Shown one piece after another: positions 27,024 through 55,100 of a stretch of DNA of 64,000 nt (positions within the stretch are counted from its first letter, which is position 1; each line of letters opens with the position of its first letter). The notes under the pieces were generated by a model. It saw only the letters and a list, made by a program, of their open reading frames with translations. It was not told the DNA's origin and did no database searches. The position numbers were made by a program, and so were the translations under genes. Source of the stretch: Candidatus Nomurabacteria bacterium (GTDB lineage: Bacteria; Patescibacteriota; Saccharimonadia; Saccharimonadales; Saccharimonadaceae). The stretch lies in NCBI GenBank assembly GCA_031262695.1, contig JAISHF010000001.1, forward strand, positions 1-64,000, given 5' to 3'.

Positions 27024-27028
27024 CAGAC

Positions 27029-27143
27029 CGCATACACGCCACATTTCGGGCAGAAACCGCAAGGGCGCTCAGGCGCGCCCTCTTGGCAAAGCAAAGCTTT
27101 GCCAATTCACCCCAGCACTGCCCTCAATATGGCGTATTTGCAG
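27029..27143. repeat. Cloverleaf palindromic element, intergenic copy (A)
   Basis: Outer inverted repeats (…ATACACGCCACATT..GGGCA and TGCCC..AATATGGCGTAT…) enclose two hairpins, GGGCGC/GCGCGCCC and TTGGCAAAGC/GCTTTGCCAA. The sequence aligns over about 100 bp with the element inside valS at 53943-54056 (shared CGGGCA, CCCTCTTGGC, GCCAATTCAC and TGCCCTC blocks). Here it sits between infC and rpmI. Confidence 0.75.
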
Positions 27144-27208
27144 TCTTGACACAGAAAACTCTTGCAATATGGAGATTTTCTGCTATAATGATGAGAGAAG
27201 GATTAATT

Positions 27209-49407: not shown

Positions 49408-49529
49408 AAAAACGCAATTGGCTCGCTCAGGTGCGGCGTCGTTTACCTCTGTCGCCACAGAGGTAAACGACGCCTCGCTCTCGGCCTGCCGGCCTCCGAG
49501 ATGCCCTTCGCGAGCCGTTTTGCGTTTTT
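49408..49529. repeat. Cloverleaf palindromic element (C)
   Basis: AAAAACGCAA..GGCTCGC and GCGAGCC..TTTGCGTTTTT close an outer stem. Inside are a 17-bp perfect stem (GGCGTCGTTTACCTCTG and its mirror) and CTCGG/CCGAG. The architecture, outer stem plus two hairpins, is that of elements A and B, with different loops. It touches the stop of the deacetylase gene and may also end its transcript. Confidence 0.6.
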
Positions 49530-52100: not shown

Positions 52101-55100
52101 ATGAGATTTGAGAAAGTTTATGAACCACGAGAAACAGAGGCGGAGATTTATGCATTGTGGGAGGCGAGTGGGGTATTTAAGGCTGGCGGGCGACAGAGAA
52201 AGAGCGATGACGGACAAGAGGTGTTGACAGGAGAAAACGACGGCGAGCGAGAGATGCTGGCAGGGGAAAACGGCGGGCGAACAGTGGCAGTGGCGGTTGG
52301 CGAGAAGACAGAGGTGAAGGGCAAGAAAACGGCGGCGAAGGGCGAGCGGAAACCGCGGGAGATTTGGTCCACGGTGATGCCGCCGCCGAATGCGAACGGC
52401 AATTTGCATATCGGACACGGGTTTGAGATGAGTTTGAAGGACGTGCTGGCACGGCATTATCGCTTACAGGGGCGGGATGTGGCGTATATTCCGGGGGCGG
52501 ATCATGCGGGGTTTGAGACTTGGGTGGTTTATGAGCGAGCGTTGGAACGGATAGGAAAGACGCGGTTTGATTTTACGCGCGACGAGTTGTATGCGCAGGT
52601 TTGGGATTTTGTGCAGAAAAATCGTAGTAATATGGAGATTCAGATTCGGCAACTGGGGATTTCGTGCGATTGGTCGGCCTTGACATTTACACTGGACCCG
52701 AAGGTGGTTGCGACGGTCTATGAGACTTTTCGCCACCTCTGGGCGGATGGGCTGGTATATCGGGGGCATAAGATTGCGAATTTTTGCCCAAAGCATCAGA
52801 CGAGTTTTGCGGACATTGAGATTACGCACCGTGACGAACAGGGATGGATGTGGGATATTGCTTATCCGATTGTCGGGGGTGAGGCGAGCGATAAAGATGA
52901 AATTCCGCGTGAGATTATTGTCTCAACGACACGCCCAGAGACGCTGCTCGGTGATACGGCGGTGGCGGTAAATCCAAAAGATGAGCGGTATAGCAAGTAT
53001 ATTGGGCTAGAGGTGGAGGTGCCACTGACGGATGAAGGGGCGACGCAGGATTGGGCGGCGGCTGACGGCAAAGGTACAGCGAGCAACTGGGCGGACGGTA
53101 TGGACGGGGCGACGGATGCTGTTTTAACAGGGGCGAGGCGGCGGATTCCGATTATTGCGGACGATTATGTGGATGAGACTTTTGGCACAGGGGCGGTGAA
53201 GATTACGCCAGCGCACGACCCGAACGATTTTGAGGTGGGTTTGCGGCATCATCTGGATGAGATTTCGGTGATTGGAATTAACGGCAAGATGTTGCCGGCG
53301 GCAGGGGAGCGATATGCGAATTTGGACGCGCTGGATGCGCGGGAGCGGGTGGTCGCGGGCCTGGAGGAACAGGGGTATTTGCGGGGCAAACACGAGATTA
53401 CGCACACGGTGGGGCATTGCTATAAGTGCGATAGTGTGATTCAGCCGCTGTTGTCTAACCAGTGGTTTATCAAGGTGCGGCCGCTGGCGGAAAGGGCAGC
53501 GAAGGCGTTGGGGGGGTCGCTGGATGAGAAAGTGGCAGATGGCGACGAGAAGGCGGCGGACGGTGGCGAGAAGGTGGCTCGTGTTGCCGAAAATGGAGTT
53601 AGCGAGGGCGAAGATGGCCCTGTGACGCACGTAGAGGGGCCTAGCATAAGCGGAAAGGGCGAAATAGGGTTCTACCCCGCTAGTAAGCGAAATGAGCTCC
53701 TAGCGTATTATAGTGAGCTTAGGGACTGGAATATCAGTCGGCAGATACCGTGGGGAATTCCGATTCCAGCGTTTCAGAATGTCGCCGACGCTTCTGATTG
53801 GATTTTTGACGAGCGAGTAGAGGAGCAATTTATAGAGGTGGATGGGAAAAAGTACAAGCGGGATGAGGATACTTTTGATACTTGGTTTTCGTCTGGGCAG
53901 TGGCCGTATATTACGACGGATGCGCCGATTTACGGCTCTTTACTCGCCTCACGCCACTCCTCGGGCACAAACGCAGGGGCGCTTGCGCCCCCTCTTGGCG
54001 CCGCTGACGCGTCGCCAATTCACTTCCGCAGTGCCCTCGGAGTGGGTGAGGCGAGCGAAGGGCCAGCTTTATCACCTCTGGCGAAATATTACCCGAATAG
54101 TGTAATGGAATGTGGGACCGACCTCTTACGGCCGTGGGTGGCAAAAATGATTATGTTTGGGTTGTATGCGACGGGCGAGGTGCCATTTAAGGAAGTTTAT
54201 TTCCATGGGATGGTGCAGGATGAGCATGGCAAAAAGATGAGCAAGTCCAAGGGGAATGTGATTTCGCCGATGGAGGTGATTGCGGAATATGGGGCGGATG
54301 CGTTCCGTTTGGGGGTGATTGCGAACCGTTCGGCGGGGCAGGCACAAGCGTTTTCGCGTTCAGGGGTGATTTCGGGGAGGAACTTTTGCAATAAGTTGTG
54401 GAATATGTCACGTTTTGTGCAGGCGACGGTGGGCGAAGATTATGGCGAGGATTTGGTCGGGGCGGATGCGCATAATGGGCGTGATGACGTGGATGAGGCG
54501 GGCGAGCGGGAGGAGACTCCTGTGAGCGAGCTGAATTTGCGGACGCCGGCCGAGCATTGGGTGGTGGCGGAGTTGAATTCGGCACGCGAGAAGTTGGCGG
54601 AGTTGCTCGCTGGCTACCGTTTTTCGGAGGCGATTGAGTTGGTTTATGCGACGGTGTGGGGCAAGGTGGCGGACTGGTTTATAGAGGCGGAGAAGGCGAG
54701 TTTGCGGGCGGCGGAGCAGGCGGGTGATGGCGGAGCAGATGAGGTGGACGCGGAGGGGCGGGCAGGCACGGGTAAGAACGCCGCAGAGGCGGAACAGCGG
54801 CGGATTCGGGCGATTTTGGCGTATGTATTGGAGTTTTGTTTGAAATTGACGCATCCGCTGGCACCGTTTGTGACAGAAACGATTTGGCAGGCGCTCAGTT
54901 GGACGGACGATTTGCTGGCCGACGAAAAGTGGGGCGATTATGCCATATATGATATAAAACAGAGAGAAAATTTTGCACAAATTATGCAGTTGGTGGAAGA
55001 AATTCGCTTTGTGGAGGCAAATATTCCCGAACGCAAACAGAAAGATGTGTTGATTTTTGGCTCAGATGAGCTGGTTGCGGAAAATGCTGAGTTGATTCGG

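Follow-up and report, generated by a model that had tools for sequence, protein, structure and literature searches.

The window, i.e. the whole 64,000-nucleotide stretch that was analyzed, belongs to contig C5 of the host genome (G000; 652 kb in five contigs, 97.5% complete, searched except for ~20 bases), and its valS gene, encoding valyl-tRNA synthetase (ValRS), carries a palindromic element within the coding sequence (Table 1). Two nested pairs of arms enclose two inner hairpins, H1 and H2: the outer arms (53934-53952/54046-54064) are 19 nt long and 84% complementary, the second arms (53954-53968/54031-54045) are 15 nt long and 87% complementary, and the arms of H2 lie at 53995-54004/54009-54018. 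The inverted repeat with two inner hairpins reported in a preliminary description was borne out by an arm search and by folding as DNA and as RNA, the RNA fold giving an outer stem and two inner hairpins. The 114 bp assigned to it at the time (53943-54056) cover most of the palindrome, but its true span is 131 bp, with arms ~8-9 bp longer on each side. As single-stranded DNA the element folds at -45.3 kcal/mol, compared with -27.8 +/- 3.0 kcal/mol for 200 shuffles (z = -5.9; 0/200 as low), and the predicted stem in the mRNA reaches -86 kcal/mol for 140 nt. With the covariance model R1, the valS core scores 77 bits in its own genome. The open reading frame remains open across the element, in agreement with the earlier statement that the insertion keeps the frame; this is consistent with translation of the insert, which would add ~35-40 residues to ValRS, and SSGTNAGALAPPLGAADASPIHF is an example of the peptide predicted in that case.

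Table 1. Palindromic elements and associated features in the window and in the host genome
Feature	Position	Strand	Basis or remark
valS (valyl-tRNA synthetase), 1108 aa	52101..55427	+	Open reading frame uninterrupted across the insert; 1GAX aligned on both sides
Whole family-A palindromic element in valS, in frame; outer inverted repeat	53934..54064	+	Inverted repeats, DNA fold, absence from relatives' ValRS
Three-way-junction core (GGGCAC ... GTGCCC), common to the genome's family-A copies	53963..54036	+	Alignment and covariance model R1
Inner hairpin H1 (GGGGCGCTTGCGCCCC) of the valS element	53976..53991	+	Folding
TC-(hairpin H2 TTGGC..GCCAA, 53995-54018)-TTCACTTCCGCA, segment also in other phyla and phages	53993..54030	+	Folds, pattern scans
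Family-A copy between infC and rpmI	27026..27145	+	Folding and genome scan
Family-B element (three-way junction, loop GTCGCCAC) between the tRNA-Arg(ccg) gene and the end of a minus-strand polysaccharide-deacetylase-like gene	49408..49529	+	
Family-A cores, contig C1	2653, 16006, 22298, 79451	+	
Degenerate family-A copy without second hairpin	near C1:78985	+	
Family-A core, contig C2	13808	+	
Family-A cores, contig C3	48361, 80692, 108855	+	Last is a truncated copy
Family-A core, contig C4	17981	+	
Family-A cores, contig C5	27081, 53993, 84887, 139952, 142141, 146158, 157552	+	
Genes holding in-frame sense family-A copies: rsmD, obg, a glycosyltransferase gene, truB, dnaX, a VirB6-like gene, valS, phosphoketolase (twice), one unnamed at C3:48k			Names other than valS read from translations

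The interrupted segment of ValRS, measured from DTWFSSGQW to the G.D(L/I)L that follows YYP, varies widely among relatives. It is 38 aa long in four other genomes of the family, 49 aa in G003 and 78 aa in G001, both of the same genus, and 84 aa in the host with its family-A element; in G001 a family-B palindrome occupies the site. One other genus (L319) reaches 124 aa, its ValRS having at this site a long expansion that is rich in His and Ser and apparently non-palindromic. The possibility, raised previously, that all relatives share a divergent non-palindromic segment was examined in this comparison; the segment is missing from ValRS elsewhere in the family, which excludes an old protein insertion. 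In Thermus ValRS (1GAX) only seven residues separate the two aligned blocks, and the insert, as placed by the 1GAX alignment alone, is thus predicted to lengthen a short loop after WFSS and before the YYP block. A ValRS structure predicted from three input sequences had low confidence (mean pLDDT 34.7, pTM 0.25) and was not usable. In addition, valS of the host contains four more in-frame insertions, all non-palindromic (approximately residues 32-75, 311-345, 470-520 and 870-900), that are missing from same-genus ValRS.

Families, sites and strand orientation

The copy between infC and rpmI mentioned in the preliminary description was found in the same orientation as the valS element, and a search of the genome with profiles and patterns identified many further copies, bringing family A to a total of ~17. 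These elements are 110-150 bp long, and thirteen of them reach 46-77 bits with the covariance model of the core. Ten family-A copies interrupt conserved genes in sense without breaking the frame, one is antisense at the start of a prepilin-like open reading frame, and four are located between convergent genes. Every gene-internal copy found is open in the frame of its gene, and of the intergenic copies two are interrupted by stops in each of the three + frames. Shuffling the elements leaves 39% of frames open, before a one-third length condition. Some copies are degenerate or truncated, so that part of the set may be old.

The common layout of family A consists of an outer stem, an (A)AAC.GC(C)A junction strand, H1 ending in CCCC, TC, H2 (TTGGC..GCCAA), TTCACCCC.GCA and the closing strand of the outer stem, the letters of which vary among subfamilies yet pair within each. 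In a structure alignment padded by hand, 86% of cells pair and 14 cells are altered on both sides, and in this same hand-padded alignment the covariation score is 0.142, as compared to 0.040 for shuffles and 0.02-0.04 for slid controls. Same-genus copies exchange the H2 stem as whole pairs (TTGGC/GCCAA, TTGCC/GGCAA, TCGCC/GGCGA), and a third species has the H2 stem GTCTCC/GGAGAC within the same layout. Rfam 15 gave no match at gathering score for either window copy or for nine other motif loci (best sub-threshold E = 0.26); the low-threshold matches were rejected as being at chance level only.

In three genomes of the genus, a scan for long gapped inverted arms detected 29, 17 and 11 loci, and one or two per shuffled one-third sample at equal threshold. 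Family B, a second palindromic family with five copies in the host, carries CC(C/T)GTCG(C/T)CAC(A/G)GG and a second hairpin, and most of its gene-internal sense copies use one reading frame, PVATG..RL.LGLP(P/A)SE; a further family, D, is present in G001. Fifteen gene-internal elements of this sister species could be mapped to the host, and eight of these sites hold a palindrome there as well, namely those in obg, valS, dnaX, leuS and four others (the obg and leuS matches have low automatic scores, 9.4 and 11.7, and the host elements there are known from separate scans). At six of the eight, the two genomes have different families. Were the sites independent among ~600 genes, a round figure, the probability of at least eight coincidences would be ~2e-9; the sites are therefore either inherited with family turnover or extremely strong hot spots. 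Most shared sites are short and non-palindromic in G003, and the glycosyltransferase gene of that genome has a family-C element at the host site.

In the host, every family-A copy is on the + strand, which is the G-rich strand of the contigs concerned. Across genomes, 24 of 25 family-A copies (skew of -0.001 at the remaining one) and all 15 family-B copies have the element on the strand that is locally G-rich, 39/40 overall, and the rule holds in contigs of both skew signs. G002 has four weaker copies, three of which are on the G-rich strand in 2-3 kb windows, and a B-like copy beside an A copy (g1_C2:9227), obtained with a looser pattern, is an exception. GC skew serves here as a proxy for the leading strand; since gene-internal copies occur in both gene orientations, being antisense in leuS, the prepilin-like gene and three G003 genes, the common factor appears to be the replication strand and not transcription. 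The Y1 (HUH/RAYT) transposase family PF01797 is absent from the four same-genus genomes G000-G003, with control genomes positive. The flanks of copies with shared arms show no obvious target duplication by eye, and the orthologous same-genus sites are too diverged at the insertion points for such a duplication to be defined.

The core in other phyla and in phage retroelements

Among 295 genomes of the family, R1 matched only in genomes of the same genus. The resulting view that the family is confined to the genus was rejected, as pattern scans located its core, GGGG..CCCC-TCTTG-(hairpin)-CAATTCACC, in Rhodobacteraceae, Clostridia and phages. The pattern CCTCTTGSC-N(2-24)-GSCAATTCACC has 0 matches in a sample of 392 other genomes of the order, which did not contain G001 and G002. 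A slightly longer pattern occurs at no fewer than 117 loci in public genomes, the matches listed being mostly from Rhodobacteraceae with others from Clostridia, Bacteroidales and a Bacillota species, and also in 52 viral contigs; about two chance matches are expected in the public genome collection by estimate. Nine genomes contain from 1 to 65 core copies each and no match to a reversed control pattern. The S bases, left free in the pattern, are complementary in 61/61 and 28/29 distinct cores, and H1, which lies outside the pattern except for CCC, is found at 111 of 120 bacterial loci, as against 43 in shuffled upstream sequence. On these sequence counts, chance is excluded as the origin of the recurrence of the core, which may reflect common descent. 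Among 55 intergenic bacterial motifs for which an upstream gene was called, 42 follow that gene in sense; phage motifs are mostly antisense to the genes around them. The family-B core had no match in the viral scan. A literature search, restricted to openly accessible journal papers, found no publication describing the core sequence, nor any describing such elements in this lineage.

A reverse transcriptase of the type found in diversity-generating retroelements (DGRs) is encoded near the motif in 24 of the 52 viral contigs. In at least five contigs direct repeats flank the motif, and the adjacent repeat is the variable repeat (VR); in the five checked, the motif lies 10-37 nt beyond it, and the mismatches between template repeat (TR) and VR fall on template adenines in 44/48 cases in four contigs and 15/16 in the fifth (59/64 in total). 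The viral core thereby occupies the position of the DGR hairpin/cruciform, which sits downstream of VR (Guo et al. 2011, PMC3240598). The published hairpins have a single 7-10 bp GC stem and a 4-nt GRNA loop (PMC3240598). The loops of H1 and H2 vary and follow no GRNA rule by eye, and the conserved double hairpin just past VR in these viral DGRs (L273, L256, L257, L291 and L281) is unlike the published type. The host itself has an intact DGR at C1:174218-178700 (L022, L023), with a target at C1:174218-176056, a reverse transcriptase at C1:176240-177427 and adenine-specific VR/TR differences. The motif was not found after this VR, and none of the host copies found lies beside a VR/TR pair. Homing of the elements by the host's own DGR was rejected on the ground that its VR lacks the motif. 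In the window, a reverse-transcriptase gene with an IGNLTSQ motif is located at 1022-2026 on the minus strand, with no template or variable repeat found nearby.

Origin of the elements and alternative explanations

The elements can be likened in architecture to the palindromic elements of Rickettsia (RPE), which are also short, multi-copy, in frame inside conserved genes and absent from orthologues. To our knowledge, no transposase is known for the Rickettsia elements. RPE and the Wolbachia palindromic elements are ~100-150 bp long, with several families per genome, and many are in frame in unrelated genes where the extra peptide is tolerated (PMC10969869). Unlike RPE, the present elements occur in an unrelated host lineage, form a three-way junction with conserved junction bases, are oriented according to GC skew and have a core common to other phyla and phages, and the same gene sites in related species hold different families. 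A likeness to MITEs such as ERIC, Correia, RUP and QMITE, which are short, dispersed, inverted-repeat and sometimes intragenic (PMC10969869), is also evident, as the host elements are short, dispersed, inverted-repeat and partly intragenic; however, no target duplication is evident by eye here and no published match to the core was found. The cruciform of DGRs (PMC3240598) is similar in the position taken by the core in phages, whereas the double hairpin seen here has conserved flanks, CTCTTG...CAATTCACC, and in the host it is a dispersed repeat without VR. The strand bias relative to replication, seen in 39/40 copies by the GC-skew proxy, is shared with a further group of elements. REP/RAYT elements and IS200/IS605 derivatives are short dispersed hairpins for which a strand bias is expected from single-strand DNA transposition. 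Unlike these, the four same-genus genomes have no Y1 transposase, and copies are also located inside genes.

It is probable that the valS insert belongs to a dispersed set of RPE-like selfish, non-coding palindromes that were copied around the 0.65-Mb genome and persist in genes only when in frame and in a permissive loop or linker. Supporting this reading are the multiple copies, the shared three-way-junction fold with paired changes, presence and absence at orthologous sites, the in-frame placement and the orientation fixed to GC skew. The preference for a mobile element over an old protein insertion, put forward at the outset, is thus upheld by the lack of a counterpart in relatives' ValRS, the genome-wide repeat, the structure-preserving changes, the strict strand orientation and the in-frame presence in many genes. 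Mobility itself is suggested by the copy number and by presence and absence at orthologous sites, although sites shared by two species could owe more to vertical descent than to recent mobility. The element may move as folded single-stranded DNA on the lagging-strand template, with the conserved junction and the CTCTTG-hairpin-CAATTCACC core serving for recognition by an enzyme that would act in trans; newer families may then replace older palindromes at the same sites, and copies would survive in genes only when in frame.

The phage data raise the alternative that the core is a cruciform required by DGRs beside their target, and that the dispersed copies owe their movement or maintenance to reverse-transcriptase-based homing. 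The motif just beyond VR in five viral DGRs, the nearby reverse transcriptases, the adenine-specific mismatches, the agreement in position with the published cruciform and the host's own DGR with its A-substituted VR all point in this direction, but the host VR is not followed by the motif, no host copy accompanies a VR/TR pair, the motif hairpins lack the GRNA loops of published ones, and the copies present by the dozen in Rhodobacteraceae and Clostridia are too numerous for all of them to be DGR targets, which leaves this explanation rather unlikely. Still less plausible is a signal at gene 3' ends, acting in RNA or DNA as a terminator or stability element and spread by transfer, with the presence in genes being accidental. 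The sense placement after bacterial genes and the four host copies between convergent genes are in line with such a role; against it are the mostly antisense phage motifs, the lack of an Rfam match and of a terminator T-run, and the harm that a terminator would do within valS, obg and dnaX.

Very little probability attaches to an ordinary hot spot of length variation, in which linkers grow by slippage and the palindromes are secondary. The His/Ser-rich segment of the L319 ValRS at the same site and the four non-palindromic expansions of the host ValRS would fit it, yet it is contradicted by the same core at 17 unrelated loci, the three-way junctions, the compensatory changes and the fixed strand. 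An intervening sequence that is excised from the mRNA, or that the ribosome skips, is hardly credible: the very stable mRNA stem would be in its favor, but all gene-internal copies are stop-free and in frame, which would be needless if they were removed, and the shuffled elements are open in only a minority of frames.

For RPE-like palindromes as the preferred explanation, the implications extend beyond this genome, since in-frame palindromic elements have until now been known mainly from Rickettsia and Wolbachia, and a second, unrelated minimal-genome lineage with the same behavior would indicate a recurring route from noncoding selfish DNA to protein. The genomes reveal insert-tolerant sites (valS, obg, dnaX, leuS) that persist while the families change, with an orientation that follows GC skew and hence replication. 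The shared core points to one DNA structure used both by these repeats and by the target hairpins of DGRs, and it provides a handle for tracing the mobilizing enzyme. A more far-reaching proposal, offered tentatively and judged doubtful, is that the double-hairpin module (GGGG-loop-CCCC TCTTG-(hairpin)-CAATTCACC) is a recognition structure common to phage DGRs and undescribed cross-phylum mobile palindromes, whose folded single strands would be copied by a process linked to reverse transcriptase or to the replication fork, and that families in this genus successively overwrite fixed in-frame sites in core genes, continually supplying new peptide segments.

As a separate observation on phages, the microvirus L299 (PQ007103.1, 1460-1484) contains, in unannotated sequence following the replication gene, a close CTCTTG-hairpin-CAATTCACC match.
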